From positions 1 to 37,455 of the forward strand of contig CAJWTC010000005.1 of the NCBI GenBank assembly GCA_913046795.1: DNA of 37,455 nt, in the 5' to 3' direction. A model generated the notes under the pieces. The model worked only from the letters and a program-made list of their open reading frames with translations. It did not search any database and was not told where the DNA came from. A program made the position numbers and the translations under genes. This document shows, piece by piece, positions 3,616 to 27,092 of this stretch. This DNA is from an uncultured Flammeovirgaceae bacterium (GTDB lineage Bacteria; Bacteroidota; Bacteroidia; Cytophagales; MED-G16). The first letter of the stretch is position 1. Every line of letters starts with the position of its first letter.

Positions 3616-4338
3616 ATGAGAATCGCTGTACTTTTCCTTTTAATTTTATTTACTAATAATATATACTCTCAAGATGATAAATCTGTTGAGAAAGAAGTTA
3701 AATCTAGATTTGATATACCTGGATACCTTAAATTAAATTTTGGATTAACAACTCTTAGCGATCCAGATCCTTCAATTAAAACAAATTTGTTTCCGTCGAG
3801 GTCACTGGATTTGTATTACTCTAAACCATTTTTTCTTAGTGACGATTTTTCTTTTAATCCTGGTTTAGGAATCTCTACTGATAAGTTATCTTTTAAAAAT
3901 GATATTACTTTAACTAATTCGATTAACAATGATGGTATAAATCAGACCACGATTGATACTTTAGATTTCACTCCTGACAAAAGCTCACTTAAAGGGACTT
4001 ACTTAATGCTTCCTATTGATTTTAAATATTATTTTGGCTCAGGTAAATACGATAAAGGAAGATTTTTTATAGGAATTGGAGGAGAGATTGGTTTATTGTT
4101 AAACTCATCAACTAAAGTGAAAAATAATGTTAATAATACTGCTAGACAGACAAAAATAAAAGATGATTTTGGTTTAAATCAATTAAAATATGGTATCTCA
4201 TTACAGGTTGGTTCAGGAAATTTCAATATCTACTACAAGATGAACCTATCAGATCTATTTGATAAAAATAATCTACCACAAAATATTGATATAAACCCTT
4301 CAATAAATAAAATAGGTATTTCTTTTTCGATTTTTTAA
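3616..4338 (+). CDS. Outer-membrane beta-barrel protein
   Basis: A 240-residue exported protein. MRIAVLFLLILFTNNIYSQ is a signal peptide with cleavage probably before the Q or D. The rest alternates polar and hydrophobic residues in strands (YLKLNFGLTTL, LMLPIDFKYYFG, RFFIGIGGEIGLLL, KYGISLQVGSG) and ends in IGISFSIF. A terminal aromatic is the usual outer-membrane assembly signal. It fits the broad PorT/OMP_b-brl group of Bacteroidota barrels of 8-10 strands. No substrate can be named. It stands alone on the plus strand. Its stop overlaps the end of convergent rpoN by 4 nt. Confidence 0.75.
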   Translation: MRIAVLFLLILFTNNIYSQDDKSVEKEVKSRFDIPGYLKLNFGLTTLSDPDPSIKTNLFPSRSLDLYYSKPFFLSDDFSFNPGLGISTDKLSFKNDITLTNSINNDGINQTTIDTLDFTPDKSSLKGTYLMLPIDFKYYFGSGKYDKGRFFIGIGGEIGLLLNSSTKVKNNVNNTARQTKIKDDFGLNQLKYGISLQVGSGNFNIYYKMNLSDLFDKNNLPQNIDINPSINKIGISFSIF

Positions 4339-5711
4339 TATTCTTTTCTTAACCTAGCTACAGGTATATTTAACTGTTCTCTATACTTAGCAACAGTCCT
4401 TCTTGCTACTTCGAATCCTTCTTCTTTTAATTTCTTTTCTAGCAGTTCATCAGATAGTGGTCTTTCTTTATTTTCATTATCAATAATATCCTTCAAAAAG
4501 TTTTTCACTACTTTACTGCTTACATATTTTTTTCCTTTCTTTATGGTAGACTCTGAAAAAAAGTATTTAAGAGGAAAGACACCAAAGTCAGTCTGAACAA
4601 CTTTGCTACTAACAATTCTACTTACTGTTGAAACATCCATTTTAATGATTTCTGCGATATCTTTTAAAATCATTGGTCTCAAATCATTTTCTTCTCCATC
4701 TTGAAAAAATTTCTTTTGATATTCAATTATAGCTTTCATTGTTTTATTCAAAGTATTATTTCTTTGATTCAAAGCTTCAATAAACCATTTTGCAGATTGA
4801 ATTTTATTTTTAATAAAGTTATAAGATTCTTTTGAATCACTGTCTTTATCCTTCTTTTTAGAGAGTTCATCAAACATTGATATATAGGTCTTATTTACAT
4901 TTATTTGTTTAGTATCTGAGGTAAACTCAACTACAAATTCATTATCATCTTTCTTAATAATGAAGTCTGGCATTAAGAATTCTGTAGTTGTAGAATCTTC
5001 CATTCCACCTGAAGGAATAGGATTTAGAGTTTTAATATAATTGAATGCTTCTTTGACTTTTTCTTTTGGAGATTTAAACTTTTCATAAATCTTTTCGAAC
5101 TGTTTTCGCTTAAAATCATCGAACGAATTCACTAGTATTTCTTTTGCAATTATTTGTACATCCGAGGGGTCTTCAACTGAATCTATTTGGATAGTGAGAC
5201 ACTCTTCTAAATTTCTAGATGCTATACCGGCTGGCTCTAATTTTTGTATTTTTAGTAATACATTTTTTACCTCATCAAGTTTAAATTCAATATTTTCAGT
5301 GAAAGCAATATCATCTATTACAGACTCGAGCTCTCTTCTTAAATACCCGTCATTTTCTAAAGATCCAATAATTTGATTTGCAATAATTTTTTCATTAGAA
5401 TCTAATTCTATATAATTCAGTTGATTAGATAAATTTTCTCTGAAAGATTCTTTATTTGATATGTTTGATTCTTTTGAATAATCGAATGAATCTTTACTTA
5501 TTTTTTGAGAGGATTTATAATCGAATTGATTTAAATCGTCTAATGTTTCTTTTCCATTATTTTCAATTTCTTCCAAAGCAGGATTTTCTTCTAATTCTTT
5601 TTTTATCTCGGACTCAATACTTGAGTTGGAAACTTGAAGAAGTTTCATAAATTGAATTTGTTGGGGAGATAATTTCTGTGTAAGGTTTTGTCTTAACTCT
5701 AAGCGTGACAT
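4335..5711 (-). CDS. rpoN: RNA polymerase sigma-54 factor
   Basis: A 458-residue sigma-54. The N-terminal activator-interaction region is clear (LRQNLTQKLSPQQIQFMKLLQ, then EEIKKELEENPALEE-like sequence). An acidic linker follows, then the core-binding region with LEPAGIASRNLEECL. The DNA-binding part has a helix-turn-helix (DIAEIIKMDVSTVSRIVSSK) and ends with the RpoN box ARRTVAKYRE at 436-445. All parts needed for recognising -24/-12 promoters are present, and the length is near the family norm. Sigma-54 needs an AAA+ enhancer-binding activator; none is encoded in this window. The gene is single on its strand. See the sigma-54-like sites before dnaK and grpE. Confidence 0.97.
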   Translation of the reverse strand: MSRLELRQNLTQKLSPQQIQFMKLLQVSNSSIESEIKKELEENPALEEIENNGKETLDDLNQFDYKSSQKISKDSFDYSKESNISNKESFRENLSNQLNYIELDSNEKIIANQIIGSLENDGYLRRELESVIDDIAFTENIEFKLDEVKNVLLKIQKLEPAGIASRNLEECLTIQIDSVEDPSDVQIIAKEILVNSFDDFKRKQFEKIYEKFKSPKEKVKEAFNYIKTLNPIPSGGMEDSTTTEFLMPDFIIKKDDNEFVVEFTSDTKQINVNKTYISMFDELSKKKDKDSDSKESYNFIKNKIQSAKWFIEALNQRNNTLNKTMKAIIEYQKKFFQDGEENDLRPMILKDIAEIIKMDVSTVSRIVSSKVVQTDFGVFPLKYFFSESTIKKGKKYVSSKVVKNFLKDIIDNENKERPLSDELLEKKLKEEGFEVARRTVAKYREQLNIPVARLRKEY

Positions 5712-7235: not shown

Positions 7236-9176
7236 TTATTTTTTATCGTCGTCTTTTACCTCCTCAAAATCAACATCTGAGATGTCATCACCTTTCTTTC
7301 CGCCAGATGCTTTTTCTTTAGCTGGATCTGAAGAAGACGGGTCTCCTCCTTGTGATGCCTGCTGTTCTTGAGAAGCTTTATAGATTTCTTGACTTGCTCC
7401 CTCCCATGATTTATTAAGAGCTTCAATTGCACTATCTATCTCATCTATATTTTGATTTTTATGCAATTCTTTAAGTTTTTCAAGATCTGTTTGAATAGCC
7501 TTTTTATTTTCCTCAGATAATTTTTCTCCAAACTCTTTAAGTTGCTTTTCTGTCTGGAATATAAGGCCGTCAGCTGTATTTAATTTGTCAACTTTGTCTC
7601 TCTCTTTCTTATCTGTTTCTGCATTTGCCTTTGCTTCATCTTTCATTTTATTAATCTCATCCTCTGATAAACCTGAAGAGGCTTCAATTCTAATATTCTG
7701 CTCTTTACCTGTTCCATTGTCTTTAGCTGAAACATTTAAAATACCGTTAGCATCTATATCAAAAGTTACCTCAATTTGAGGAACTCCTCTTGGTGCTGGT
7801 GGGATACCATCTAAATGAAATCTACCAATTGTTTTATTATCTTTTGCCATTGGCCTTTCACCTTGTAAAACATGTATTTCTACTGCGGGCTGATTATCAG
7901 CAGCAGTTGAAAATGTTTCTGATTTTTTAGTAGGAATAGTTGTGTTAGACTCTATTAATTTTGTAAACACACCATTCAACGTCTCAATACCAAGAGATAA
8001 TGGTGTTACGTCTAGTAACAAGACATCTTTAACCTCACCTGTGAGTACTCCTCCTTGTATTGCTGCACCTACTGCTACTACTTCATCAGGATTGACTCCT
8101 TTTGATGGTTTCTTCTTGAAAAAACCTTCAACTTCTTCCTGAATTTTTGGGATTCTAGTAGTTCCGCCAACTAGTATAACCTCATCTATCTCTGAGAGAT
8201 CTATTTTAGCATCTTTAAGTGCTTTCTTACATGGCTCAAGAGTCCTTTCAATTAATTTCTGAGATAATTGCTCAAACTTTGATCTACTTAGTGACCTTAC
8301 AAGGTGTTTAGGGACTCCATCAACAGGCATAATATAAGGTAAATTGATCTCTGTAGAAGTTGAACTTGATAATTCAATCTTAGCTTTTTCTGCGCCTTCC
8401 TTTAGTCTCTGAAGAGCCATTGGATCTTTTCTAAGGTCTATTCCTTCATCTTTCTTAAATTCATCAGCTAACCAATCAATTAGAACACTATCAAAATCAT
8501 CACCTCCTAAATGAACATCTCCATTAGTAGATTTTACTTCAAATACACCATCTCCAAGTTCTAGAATAGATATGTCAAAAGTTCCTCCTCCAAAATCATA
8601 AACTGCAATTTTTAAATCTTTATCTTTCTTATCAAGACCATAAGCTAAAGCAGCAGCAGTAGGCTCATTAATAATTCTTTTTACATCAAGACCCGCAATT
8701 GTCCCAGCTTCCTTGGTTGCCTGTCTTTCTGAATCATTAAAATAAGCAGGTACTGTAATTACAGCTTCTTTTACTTCTGATCCTAGGTAATCTTCTGCAG
8801 TTGATTTCATTTTCTGAAGTATCATAGCCGAAAGTTCTTGGGGAGTGTATTTCCTAGATCCTATCTTAACTCTCACCGTATCATTTGTTCCTTTTTCAAC
8901 ATCATAGGAAAGGTTTCTTTTCTCCTCGTTTATATCTGAGTACTTTTTACCCATAAATCTTTTAACTGAATTAATAGTATTTTTAGGGTTTGTAATAGCT
9001 TGTCTTTTTGCAGGATCACCTACTTTTCTTTCTCCTTTACCTTCATCTAAAAATGCAACAATTGATGGAGTTGTCCTCTTTCCTTCGCTGTTGGGTATAA
9101 CAACAGGTTCATTACCTTCCATAACAGATACACATGAATTTGTAGTACCTAAATCTATTCCTATAATTTTACTCAT
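7236..9176 (-). CDS. dnaK: Chaperone DnaK (Hsp70)
   Basis: A 646-residue Hsp70. It opens [16 protein letters not shown], the phosphate-1 ATP-binding loop. It has [17 protein letters not shown] and [12 protein letters not shown] (phosphate 2), then [14 protein letters not shown] (adenosine site). The inter-domain linker [15 protein letters not shown] leads into the substrate-binding domain. The C-terminal lid ends in a Gly/Ser/Asp-rich tail closing with [13 protein letters not shown], similar to the EEVKD-like tails of bacterial DnaK. It works with DnaJ and GrpE, encoded about 4 kb away on the same strand but in a separate unit. It follows atpC by 69 nt. The composite TGACA / TGGCA-N6-TTGT element lies in that gap, so it may have its own heat-type promoter. 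Confidence 0.99.
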
Positions 9177-9204: not shown

Positions 9205-9220
9205 GACAAGAATTATGCCA
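9205..9220 (-). promoter_or_regulatory. Sigma-54-like -24/-12 element upstream of dnaK
   Basis: The minus strand reads TGGCATAATTCTTGTC. GG and GT are separated by exactly 10 nt, as in sigma-54 promoters (GG-N10-GC). TGGCA and TTG match the consensus; the -12 C is T. The predicted start would be near 9194, leaving about 18 nt of leader before the dnaK ATG. Confidence 0.5.
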
Positions 9221-9231
9221 TGCTGATATAA

Positions 9232-9244
9232 TGACAAAATGTCA
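9232..9244. promoter_or_regulatory. Palindrome TGACA-AAA-TGTCA upstream of dnaK
   Basis: A perfect 5-bp inverted repeat with a 3-nt centre, placed between the atpC stop and the sigma-54-like element. Its centre is 19 nt from the first G of the -24 GG. It could be the operator of a heat-shock regulator. Confidence 0.5.
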
Positions 9245-12302: not shown

Positions 12303-13418
12303 TTAGCTCATGAAATCTCTGACTCTCTCAAAAAAACCTTTATCGGATTTACTTGGATTTGGTTTAAAATTTTTAGAATCTTTTAGCTTTAATAATATCT
12401 TCTCTTCTTCAATACTCAATTTTTTAGGTGTCCATATGTTAATATGAATTAGCTGATCACCTGTTGATGATGAGTTGATATCTCTAATTCCTTTACCCCT
12501 TAATCTTAATATTTTTCCGCTTTGAGTTCCAGAAGGAATTTTAATTTTTACTTTGCCATTAATGGTAGGTACTTCTAGTTCTTTACCTAATACAGCATCT
12601 ATAAAGTTTACATATAAATCATAGACTATATTATTGCCATCTCTTTTAAATTCTTCACTTTCTATTTCTTCTATTAGTATAAGAAGATCTCCAGCCATTC
12701 CTCCAGAAGGTGACTCATTCCCTTTACCTGACATTGATAGTTGCATTCCATTAGATACTCCTGAGGGTATCTTTATTTCTATAATTTCTTCCTTATATTG
12801 TAAACCTGTGCTATCTACACCAGGTGGTTTATTATCAATTATCTTTCCTGTTCCACTGCATTGGTAGCATGGAGAAGATGAAACCATTTGTCCAAGCATT
12901 GTATTAACAACTTTATTTACCTTACCTGTTCCATTGCATGCTGGACATGTCTTGAATGTTACTCCAGGAGCTGTAACTAATCTTTTTACCTTAATTTTTT
13001 TATCAACTCCACCTGCTATCTCCTTAATGCTTAGTTTAAGTTTTATTCTAAGATTAGTTCCTTTATTTCTTTGCTGGCTTGATCCGCCTCCAAAGAAACT
13101 ATCAAAAGGACTTCCACCACCAAAAATATCTCCAAATTGATCAAAGATGTCCTCCATATTCATGTTTCCACCTGAGAAACCACCCTGTCCTCCTTTAAAA
13201 GCATTATGACCAAACCTGTCATATTGTTGTTTTTTTTCAGGATTACTTAGAATTTCGTATGCTTCTGCTGCCTCTTTAAATTTTTCCTCAGCTTCTTTAT
13301 TGTCTGGGTTTTTGTCAGGGTGGAACTTTATTGCAACTTTTCTATAAGCTTTCTTGATTTCAGTAGCTGATGCTGACTTGTTGACATTTAAAATATCGTA
13401 GTAGTCTCTCTTTGACAT
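12303..13418 (-). CDS. dnaJ: Co-chaperone DnaJ with reduced zinc domain
   Basis: A 371-residue Hsp40. The J domain (1-70) carries the HPD triad at 33-35, which triggers DnaK ATPase. A Gly/Phe-rich linker follows (about 73-118). The zinc region keeps only two CxxCxGxG motifs, CPACNGTG (158-165) and CYQCSGTG (184-191), instead of four. The sequence goes straight from [17 protein letters not shown] into the first, and no fourth motif follows. The two kept motifs correspond to the second zinc centre; the first is lost. I recall this form from flavobacterial DnaJ proteins. The C-terminal peptide-binding domains are complete, ending [11 protein letters not shown]. Its ATG overlaps the grpE stop (TAATG), so translation is coupled. 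Confidence 0.97.
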
Positions 13419-13897
13419 TATGATCCAATTACAACTTTACCAAATCTCAGAATTTTATCACCTATTAGGTAACCATCTTCTATAATATCAACAACTTTTC
13501 CTTTTAATTTTTTTTCTGATGGGGTACTTGTAATAGCTTCATGAAATTCAGAGTTGAAATCATCACCAACCTTAATTTCCATTTTCTTTAAATTATGCTT
13601 TTCAAGAATCCCTCTTAATTTTTGGAATATTAAATTAATTCCCTCTTCGTCAATAACATTATCAGAATCAGAAGATTTAATTGCCCTCTCAAAATCATCA
13701 GATATAGGTAAAATTTCTTTTAGCAAATCTTTATTTGCTGAATCAATCATTTCAATTTTTTCTTTAGATGTTCTTCTCCTATAATTTTCGAACTCGGAGT
13801 ATAGTCTAAGATATTTGTCTTTAGATTCTTGAAGTTCTAATTTTAGATCTTGACTTTTAGTTGTTTTTGTTTTCTTTGTAGTCTTTTTCTTATTCAT
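13418..13897 (-). CDS. grpE: Nucleotide exchange factor GrpE
   Basis: A 159-residue GrpE that releases ADP from DnaK. A Lys/Thr-rich tail ([14 protein letters not shown]) precedes the long coiled coil ([27 protein letters not shown]), then the four-helix part and the compact beta domain. That domain contains [14 protein letters not shown] and ends [11 protein letters not shown], close to the classical ending ILRPAKVVV. It overlaps dnaJ by one base. A sigma-54-like element lies immediately upstream. If that element is used, the transcript would begin only about 2 nt before the ATG, so a leaderless message or a slightly different start point is possible. Confidence 0.96.
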
Positions 13898-13910
13898 ATA
13901 TTATGTACTT

Positions 13911-13925
13911 ACAATTTCTTTGCCA
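13911..13925 (-). promoter_or_regulatory. Sigma-54-like -24/-12 element upstream of grpE-dnaJ
   Basis: The minus strand reads TGGCAAAGAAATTGT, with GG-N10-GT spacing and the same C-to-T change at -12 as in the dnaK element. It is preceded by a run of 12 T and a second TGGCA. The predicted start is near 13899. Confidence 0.45.
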
Positions 13926-13936
13926 AAAAAAAAAAA

Positions 13937-13949
13937 TGCCATTTTGACT
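13937..13949 (-). promoter_or_regulatory. Degenerate copy of the dnaK palindrome upstream of grpE
   Basis: The minus strand reads AGTCAAAATGGCA. It matches 10 of 13 bases of TGACAAAATGTCA and is centred 19 nt from the -24 GG, the same distance as at dnaK. The inverted symmetry is weaker (3 of 5 arm pairs). Confidence 0.35.
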
Positions 13950-24569: not shown

Positions 24570-27092
24570 ATGGAAGCAAAATTTTCAAATAGAGTTAAAG
24601 AAGTTATATCACTTAGCAGAGAGGAAGCGCTTCGACTTGGTCATGACTATATAGGAACAGAGCACCTGTTATTAGGGGTTATAAGAGAGGGAGAAGGAGT
24701 TGCTATAAGTTTGTTAAAAAAATTAGGAATTAGTCTCGAAGATTTAAGAGCTTCAGTTGAGCATAACACTAAAAATACAAGTGTTACTAATTTAAAAAAT
24801 ATGTCAAATATTCCTCTGACAAGACAGACAGAAAAGGTATTAAAGATAACCTACTTAGAAGCCAAGATTTTTAAAAGTAAATTAATTGGCACTGAGCATC
24901 TTCTTCTATCTATACTTAGAGACGAGGATAATATTGCAACTCAAATATTAGATAAATTTGATGTGACTTATGACGTTGTTAAGGAGCTTTTAGAATATCA
25001 AACTAGCAAGCCCCAAGGTTCTACCTCATCGGAACCTTTGGAAGATGACGACCTGCCAAAATCAAAAGGGCCAATATCACCTTCAAAAAAATCTAAATCT
25101 AAAGAAAAATCAAAAACACCTATACTTGATAATTTTGGTAAAGATCTTACAGAGCTTGCCTCAAAAGACAAATTAGATCCAGTCATTGGAAGAGAGAAAG
25201 AAATAGATAGAGTTGCACAAATACTTACTAGGAGAAAGAAAAATAACCCTATACTTATTGGTGAGCCCGGAGTAGGTAAGACAGCAATTGCAGAGGCATT
25301 AGCTCTTAGGATAACTCAGAAAAAAGTTTCTAGAATTCTTCATAATAAGAGGGTAGTTACTCTTGATCTTGCATCTCTTGTTGCAGGGACTAAATACAGA
25401 GGTCAGTTTGAGGAGAGGATGAAGGCTATAATGACTGAGATAGAAAAATCTGATGATGTAATTTTATTTATTGATGAGCTTCATACTATTGTTGGGGCAG
25501 GTGGAGCCTCTGGCTCATTAGACGCCTCTAATATGTTTAAGCCAGCTCTTGCAAGAGGTGAATTACAATGCATTGGCGCTACAACGTTAGATGAGTACAG
25601 GCAATATGTTGAAAAAGATGGGGCCTTAGCTAGAAGATTTCAAGTAGTGGTGGTAGATCCAACAACTACAGAGGAGACTAAGAATATCCTAGATAATATT
25701 AAGGATAAATACGAATCACACCACAATGTGACGTACTCACAGCAAGCTATTGAAGCTTGCGTCAGCCTTTCTGACAGGTATATAAGTGATAGGTTTTTAC
25801 CAGATAAAGCTATTGATTTAATGGATGAAGCTGGCTCGAGAGTTCATATGCATAATCTTGACGTGCCTGAAGTCATAATCGATATAGAAAATAAAATTGA
25901 GGAGATTAAAAATCAAAAAAATCAAGTAGTTCAAAATCAAAAATATGAAGAAGCAGCTCAGTTACGTGACACTGAAAAGAAATTACTAGCTGAACTTGAT
26001 GTTCAGAAAAAAAAGTGGCTTGAAGAATCAAAGAAGAAGAGACATAAAGTAAATGAAAAAAATATTTCTGAAGTAGTTTCAATGGTTACTGGTATTCCTG
26101 TTGAGAGGATAGCTCAGAATGAAAGTAGCAGACTTTTAGGTATGTCAAAAGAATTATCAAAAGAGGTAATTGGCCAAGATAATGCTATTGATAAGCTAGT
26201 GAGAGCCATTAAAAGAAATAGAGTTGGTCTTAAAGACCCTAAAAAACCAATAGGTTCATTTATATTTTTGGGACCAACTGGAGTTGGAAAGACAGAGCTT
26301 GCTAAAGTTCTTTCAAAATATCTTTTTGACAAAGATGATTCTCTCATCAGAGTAGACATGTCAGAATACATGGAAAAATTTTCAATTTCAAGATTAGTTG
26401 GTGCCCCTCCAGGCTATGTAGGTTATGAAGAAGGAGGTCAACTTAGTGAGAAAGTAAGAAGGAAACCATATAGTATAATTCTTTTAGATGAAATTGAAAA
26501 GGCTCATCCAGACGTTTTCAATTTGTTACTTCAGATTCTTGATGAAGGATTTTTAACTGACGGATTAGGCCATAGAGTTGACTTCAGAAATACTATTATG
26601 ATAATGACTTCAAATATAGGAGCTAGAGATGTTCAGGATTTTGGTGCAGGGATTGGGTTTGAGACAAAGTCAAGAGCTGATAATATTAATGAAAACCTTA
26701 AGTCAACTATTGATAAAGCTTTACAAAGAACTTTTAATCCTGAGTTTATAAATAGACTAGATGATATAATTGTCTTTAACTCTCTTACTAGAGATAATTT
26801 GTATAAAATAATCGATATCAATCTTGAAAAGCTTTATAAAAAAGCTAATGAAATTGGTTATACAATTAAGTTATCAAAAGAATGTAAAGACTTTTTGATT
26901 AAAAAGGGTTACAATCCAAAGTATGGTGCAAGACCATTAGAAAGGGCTATCCAAAAGTATCTTGAAGATGTCCTTGCAGAAGAGATTTTATCTGGTAACT
27001 TGAAAAAAGGAGATATTATAAGTGCTGATTTCGATTCAAAAAAGGAAGAGATTAAAATCAAAAAGTTAGATTCAAAGAAGAAGATTAAGTAA
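24570..27092 (+). CDS. clpC: ATP-dependent Clp protease ATPase subunit ClpC
   Basis: An 840-residue Hsp100 unfoldase that feeds proteins to ClpP. Two N-terminal Clp repeats (from [30 protein letters not shown]) precede a Lys/Ser-rich linker near 150-185. AAA module 1 has Walker [10 protein letters not shown] and Walker [14 protein letters not shown]-type coiled insert ([19 protein letters not shown]) separates ClpC from ClpA and ClpB. AAA module 2 has [12 protein letters not shown] and [25 protein letters not shown]. It ends in the small domain [23 protein letters not shown]. No palindrome or TGGCA element like those at dnaK is seen upstream. Its last 8 nt overlap the end of convergent fabG. 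Confidence 0.98.

Follow-up and report, generated by a model that had tools for sequence, protein, structure and literature searches.

A sigma-54 promoter with a helically phased upstream palindrome at the chaperone genes of Bacteroidia

Two chaperone units and a sigma-54 gene were identified on the minus strand of the window, the whole stretch of 37,455 nucleotides from an uncultured Flammeovirgaceae bacterium that was analyzed in this study. The first unit contains grpE (159 amino acids, 13418..13897, Pfam GrpE E=5.7e-39), with its ATG at 13897, and dnaJ (371 amino acids, 12303..13418, Pfam DnaJ and DnaJ_C), which overlaps the grpE stop codon; because of this overlap, the two genes probably form one transcription unit. 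The second contains dnaK (646 amino acids, 7236..9176, Pfam HSP70 E=6.7e-261). The rpoN gene (458 amino acids, 4335..5711) scored 416.8 bits against TIGR02395, where the cut-off is 277, and its AID, CBD, and DBD domains were all present; its product is the sigma-54 factor expected to recognize the -24/-12 elements described below.

Upstream of grpE, a composite element was read on the minus strand as a 13-bp box AGTCAAAATGGCA (13949-13937), an 11-nt spacer that is all T here and sets the distance from box to promoter (13936-13926), and a -24/-12 promoter of the sigma-54 type, TGGCAAAGAAATTGTA (13925-13910). The promoter is an exact match to TGGCA-N6-TTGNW, where the GG and the G are 10 nt apart in a TGGCA-N6-TTG context, and its predicted start lies near 13899. 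The box is a degenerate copy of TGNCA-N3-TGNCA, centered at approximately -44 from this start. As claimed in the original prediction, the same composite was found before dnaK on the minus strand, where a 13-bp box with perfect palindrome arms (TGACATTTTGTCA, 9232..9244) is followed after 11 nt by the promoter TGGCATAATTCTTGTC (9205..9220), and the distance from box center to GG was 19 nt at both loci. The agreement of 10 out of 13 positions between the two boxes, however, was only obtained when the dnaK box was read on the plus strand. Compared on their sense strands, TGACATTTTGTCA and AGTCAAAATGGCA agree at 7 of 13 positions, and the part they have in common is the two palindrome arms. A T after the -12 G had also been taken as a promoter variant common to both units, but it was not conserved, with TTGC found at grpE in most relatives.

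The grpE ATG is located 28 nt past the first T of TGGCA. The start predicted some 2 nt ahead of the ATG, another feature described earlier, was recovered in eight of the nine family members checked, the window included. The grpE transcript would thus have practically no leader, with a predicted 5' UTR of approximately 2-3 nt (13897-13899 in the window). Since the distance from promoter to ATG was 28-29 nt in eight of the nine members checked, among them a member of another genus, the selection of a start codon without a leader may be real at grpE.

When considered alone, the box was not in excess in the window, where 24 matches with up to three mismatches were found against 24.6 expected in shuffled sequences. 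The full composite, with the same tolerance, had three matches in 1.23 Mb, one of them in coding DNA. Since the box count in the window equaled the shuffled expectation, conservation was used in place of single-genome statistics. The genomes available for the family are incomplete, that of the window (G000) being 63% complete. Among the upstream regions recovered, the composite was retained in all 13 dnaK regions, each with an 11-nt spacer, and in all 12 grpE regions, where the spacer was 11 nt (eight regions) or 12 nt (four regions) and every box read RGYCA-N3-TGNCA. The box and the promoter remained constant at the dnaK and grpE loci of the family, while the intervening and flanking DNA varied; the grpE spacer was thus conserved in length but not in sequence.

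A scan of 15 family genomes for the composite (up to three mismatches) returned dnaK and grpE, as well as groES in three genomes. A few further matches with three mismatches were found, and those checked were mostly in coding DNA. A reversed control pattern had two matches in these genomes, compared with 33 for the composite. The groESL unit is therefore a third unit of the family that carries the composite at the same spacing, as seen at three groES loci. Records under the names Marinoscillum sp., Flammeovirgaceae, and Cytophagales also contained composite sites that match those of the family exactly, which places the window in a small marine Cytophagales lineage of the Bacteroidota; the class is called Bacteroidia here for this reason. 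The earlier argument that two chaperone units would hardly share such an element by chance was upheld by this conservation, but not by the grpE box alone, which was not above chance level.

The exact pattern TGACANNNTGTCA-N11-TGGCA-N6-TTG was scanned over 84,980 prokaryotic species, allowing only perfect arms and an 11-nt spacer. At least 119 matching stretches were found, where approximately 7 would be expected by chance according to our own arithmetic (2 x 2.57e11 / 4^18). Among the matches listed, the next gene was groES in 30 cases, dnaK in 28 (including a truncated contig whose promoter matches a dnaK promoter exactly), htpG in 21, grpE in 15, lon in seven, and clpB in six, with clpC, hsp20, and secA occurring once each. 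Hence, about 110 of the at least 119 exact matches precede genes of this chaperone and quality-control set. The remaining few among the matches listed were truncated, preceded a ferritin gene, or were unrelated, and nearly all records listed belonged to the Bacteroidota. The outcome that had been named as contradicting the prediction, with abundant matches inside coding regions or ahead of unrelated genes, was not observed in the scans. The proposal of one composite regulatory element common to two chaperone units was supported by the family footprint, by groESL as a third unit, and by the scan of all prokaryotes.

Several individual occurrences were also recorded. With one or two mismatches, the composite was additionally found before htpG, hsp20, clpC, secA, LemA-like, Zn_peptidase_2, and Bax1-I-like genes. 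In an Odoribacter metagenome-assembled genome (L158), an exact composite precedes a ferritin gene, the clearest target outside proteostasis among the exact matches listed. Three records (L117, L122, and L126) carried labels from other phyla or families: those labelled Neomarinimicrobiota (groES) and Lentisphaerae (htpG) have the composite before genes that look like those of Bacteroidota and may be mis-binned contigs, and the match labelled Lachnospiraceae has no chaperone gene downstream. The composite was looked for at the ClpC-like gene of the window (24570-27092) and was absent there, unlike in other Bacteroidia where clpC carries it (L196 and L209).

A scan of the phylum with two mismatches and the N11 spacer only detected the composite in 16 of 118 genomes. 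A narrow distribution, as this count might suggest, was rejected, as elsewhere in the class the boxes occur at other spacers: at loci chosen by gene, spacers of 12, 22-23, 43-45, 54-55, 64-66, and 74-76 nt were found. For this analysis, the upstream regions of dnaK and groES were selected from about 60 class genomes by protein search alone, and not by motif. At 71 of 78 loci, a sigma-54 score of at least 14 was reached no more than 100 nt from the start, compared with 2.6% of shuffled windows. Half-sites, defined as TGNCA where N is A, C, or T, were then counted in 70 non-redundant dnaK and groES promoters of the class, where 209 were found against 22.7 expected, a 9-fold enrichment. Their density was 2.99 per 120 nt, compared with 0.25 in control DNA 500-620 nt upstream. 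Additionally, a second half-site tended to occur 8 bp from each half-site, which gives the unit TGNCA-N3-TGNCA, and this unit was present with up to two mismatches in its eight positions in all 70 promoters.

The half-sites were not placed at random along the DNA. Their distances to the -24 element clustered at 14-18, 25-28, 35-37, 46-48, 57-60, 67-71, 77-81, 87-90, and 98-100 nt, with a period of 10.5-10.6 bp and a spectral power of 84-86, while the maximum among 5,000 random sets was 13.6. The phasing was retained with one site per promoter (power of 29 versus 10). It was locked to the -24 element (power of 84) and not to the start codon, from which the power was 4.1. When the dnaK and groES promoters were taken separately, both were phased with the same phase, at near and far sites alike. 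The TGTCA arm in the window is in phase with the class promoters (5.5 versus 5.6 nt). Each promoter was placed by its best -24/-12 score, so that a few could be misplaced, although a period of 10.5 bp should not arise in this way. Many boxes of the class are positioned at -98 and -108, corresponding to the spacers of 64-66 and 74-76 nt. In many dnaK promoters of the class (for example, L222, L225, L233, and L246), two box clusters were seen about 33-45 bp apart, near -56 and at -90 to -100, while the family of the window has one near site only.

Two familiar heat-shock systems were looked for as the control of these genes. CIRCE (TTAGCACTC-N9-GAGTGCTAA) or a near variant was absent from the window, and CIRCE was accordingly rejected as the control of its chaperones. 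Among Bacteroidota chaperone loci, it was found in one of the 223 loci of the main set, compared with 15 of 30 groES loci from sister classes, and the phased boxes were absent from those 30 loci. Given that CIRCE is common in the sister classes and nearly absent here, the box system appears to take the place of HrcA/CIRCE in this class. The single CIRCE locus of the main set (L291, genome G202) is a Bacteroidia groES without TGTCA boxes in a genome that has kept the orthologue of the activator described below, possibly a local swap of heat-shock systems. In one family of the sister classes (f30; L332, L333, L334, and L336), groES has a strong sigma-54 promoter of the TGGCACG-N4-TTTGAT type without phased boxes, and at L214 and L215 the composite precedes a Bax1-I-like gene; together, these could represent an intermediate state. 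A PF04542 search of the window's genome (63% complete) identified only two genes of the sigma-70 family, and no rpoH was found among them. One, of 290 amino acids, is of the housekeeping RpoD type (162 bits against TIGR02392, cut-off 323), and the other, of 197 amino acids, is ECF-sized. The chaperone stress response of Bacteroidia seems to do without either of the two best-known heat-shock switches.

An AAA+ activator is required before the sigma-54 polymerase opens any promoter. A PF00158 search of 10 genomes of the host genus identified one strong activator of the enhancer-binding type (bEBP, E<1e-60) in seven genomes, among them that of the window (contig C59, E=6.7e-70), and none in the remaining three, which are 54-77% complete. 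Its gene is flanked by miaB and lptE; farther along come a TPR-like gene, secG, and groESL. The protein has an AAA+ domain from residue 17 and a Fis-type helix-turn-helix, without an N-terminal sensor domain, and the two are joined by a linker of about 100 residues (approximately residues 267-365). The orthologue of G006 has AAA+ plus HTH_8. Across the class, an orthologue at E<1e-90 was found in 59 of 60 genomes, the exception being G218, for which no clear orthologue was identified. The recognition segment ISERTLYRK was invariant in the aligned complete sequences. In 35 of the 58 genomes compared, the gene and groES share a strand and are no more than about 4 kb apart. Since most class genomes encode at least two activators of this type, the assignment there is by linkage and not by exclusivity. 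In the host genus, the groESL-linked bEBP is the only known candidate for the chaperone promoters, and among proteins that might bind the box it is the leading candidate.

We therefore consider it likely that the element is a sigma-54 promoter combined with an upstream site for the activator encoded between miaB and lptE, and that it controls a protein-quality-control regulon. This interpretation builds on the element together with its conservation, gene specificity, and helical phasing, on the sigma-54 gene in the genome, and on the single strong activator in the genus, all of which were observed directly. The regulon would include dnaK, grpE-dnaJ, and groESL, and elsewhere in the class also htpG, lon, clpB or clpC, hsp20, and secA. 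The TGNCA-N3-TGNCA palindrome would most likely be bound by the Fis-type helix-turn-helix of the bEBP, which would sit on one helix face relative to the sigma-54 polymerase. During protein-folding stress, remodeling of sigma-54 by the AAA+ ring of the bEBP would open the promoter. The assignment of the box to the bEBP is the simplest reading of the gene specificity together with the same-face phasing. We infer that the bEBP binds the box, that binding activates and does not repress, and that the system responds to heat or misfolded protein.

Like the upstream activating sequences of such activators, the box is palindromic, conserved, and placed ahead of a -24/-12 promoter. Two features of its geometry count against the bEBP: the family boxes are centered at about -44, which is unusual for an enhancer-binding protein, and the half-sites, spaced at 8 bp, are closer together than in classical NtrC- or NifA-type sites. 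The long linker between the AAA+ and helix-turn-helix domains may permit action from a site at about -44. Of the copies in the class, those at about -98 and -108 fall within the enhancer range of approximately 80-150 bp, while the window boxes do not, and for this reason the latter were not classified as classical enhancers.

An alternative, which we regard as possible but rather unlikely, is that the box serves as operator for a different DNA-binding protein, either an HrcA-like repressor or a co-activator, with the bEBP acting from another location or from solution. A site centered at -44 to -56 would overlap the polymerase or border on it, the rigid spacing and phasing fit a short-range contact, and the 13-bp geometry is unlike that of the usual Fis helix-turn-helix site. 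The many class boxes at -98 and -108, however, lie in the classical enhancer range and are awkward for a repressor, and the regulator gene linked to the chaperone units is that of the bEBP, no other having been noticed in a non-systematic survey. It is very improbable that the TGNCA repeats are additional docking sites of the sigma-54 holoenzyme or upstream polymerase contacts: TGNCA does resemble the -24 half TGGCA and is phased relative to it, but the unit is palindromic without a -12 partner, and copies extend to about -110 from the start. Even less credible is a nucleic-acid structure effect, in which the gene upstream would contribute the palindromes as terminator or RNA hairpins. At several groES loci (L271, L285, L287, and L289), distal TGTCA or TGACA sites do lie within a stem followed by a T-run, and there a terminator and regulator sites may use the same bases. 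The dnaK promoters alone, however, show the same period and phase, the arms of the 13-bp box are only 5 bp with a loop of 3 nt, and a terminator is not expected to be phased to the -24 element. Chance resemblance in T-rich DNA, with which the box count in the window agrees, is refuted by the conservation data, and the family footprint, the gene specificity across prokaryotes, and the helical phasing leave it a negligible probability.

The sigma-54 promoter with its candidate activator, encoded between miaB and lptE, can be compared with known systems. CIRCE is likewise a short palindrome at groESL that is conserved in many species, but its sequence differs from the box, and it is a repressor site at sigma-70-type promoters. 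Sites of the NtrC and PspF type are also palindromes upstream of -24/-12 promoters in genomes with a bEBP; the box differs in its 13-bp unit, its closest copy at -44 to -56, its strict 10.5-bp phasing, and its chaperone targets. The RpoH (sigma-32) regulon of Proteobacteria covers nearly the same genes (dnaK, grpE, groESL, htpG, lon, and clpB), whereas the Bacteroidia promoters are of the sigma-54 plus activator type and not of the type read by an alternative factor of the sigma-70 family.

Control of Bacteroidota chaperones by sigma-54 is already published (PMC9723704, PMC12316311). In Flavobacterium psychrophilum, mapped start sites with the sigma-54 motif SM4 were reported at groESL, lon, dnaK, grpE-dnaJ, htpG, skp, and clpB, and groESL, lon, dnaK, grpE-dnaJ, and htpG formed one co-expression cluster (PMC9723704). 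These are also -24/-12 promoters at Bacteroidota chaperone genes, but SM4 is a sigma motif only, and no palindrome or inverted repeat, activator assignment, or phasing was found when the main text of that study was searched (PMC9723704). Similarly, a survey of sigma-54 regulons with a PSSM found predicted promoters enriched at the groEL/ES, grpE, dnaJ, dnaK, and hsp20 COGs in Bacteroidota, while an upstream activator site, the box, the phasing, and the activator were not found in its text (PMC12316311). A statement on B. thetaiotaomicron and F. psychrophilum in that survey, which sounds experimental, cites a paper on nitrogen recycling in Blattabacterium (PMC12316311). In the literature searched, which was mainly open-access and included no preprints, no description of the phased box was found, so that an earlier one is possible, and no paper was found that names either a DNA site or a protein controlling the chaperones of Bacteroidia.

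Bacteroidia are dominant in the human gut and in a large part of the polymer-degrading community of the ocean. There is perhaps an even chance that they have exchanged HrcA/CIRCE and RpoH for sigma-54 and a dedicated activator encoded beside groESL, acting through phased 13-bp boxes at distances down to -44. With a heat-shock element and a named candidate activator, chaperone control in Bacteroidia becomes directly testable in laboratory strains. The element also offers a strict helical-phasing rule for short-range sigma-54 activation and renders a stress regulon readable from any Bacteroidia genome. If true, a class-wide heat-shock regulon would be run by an enhancer-binding protein that acts beside the polymerase, and not solely through long-range looping.
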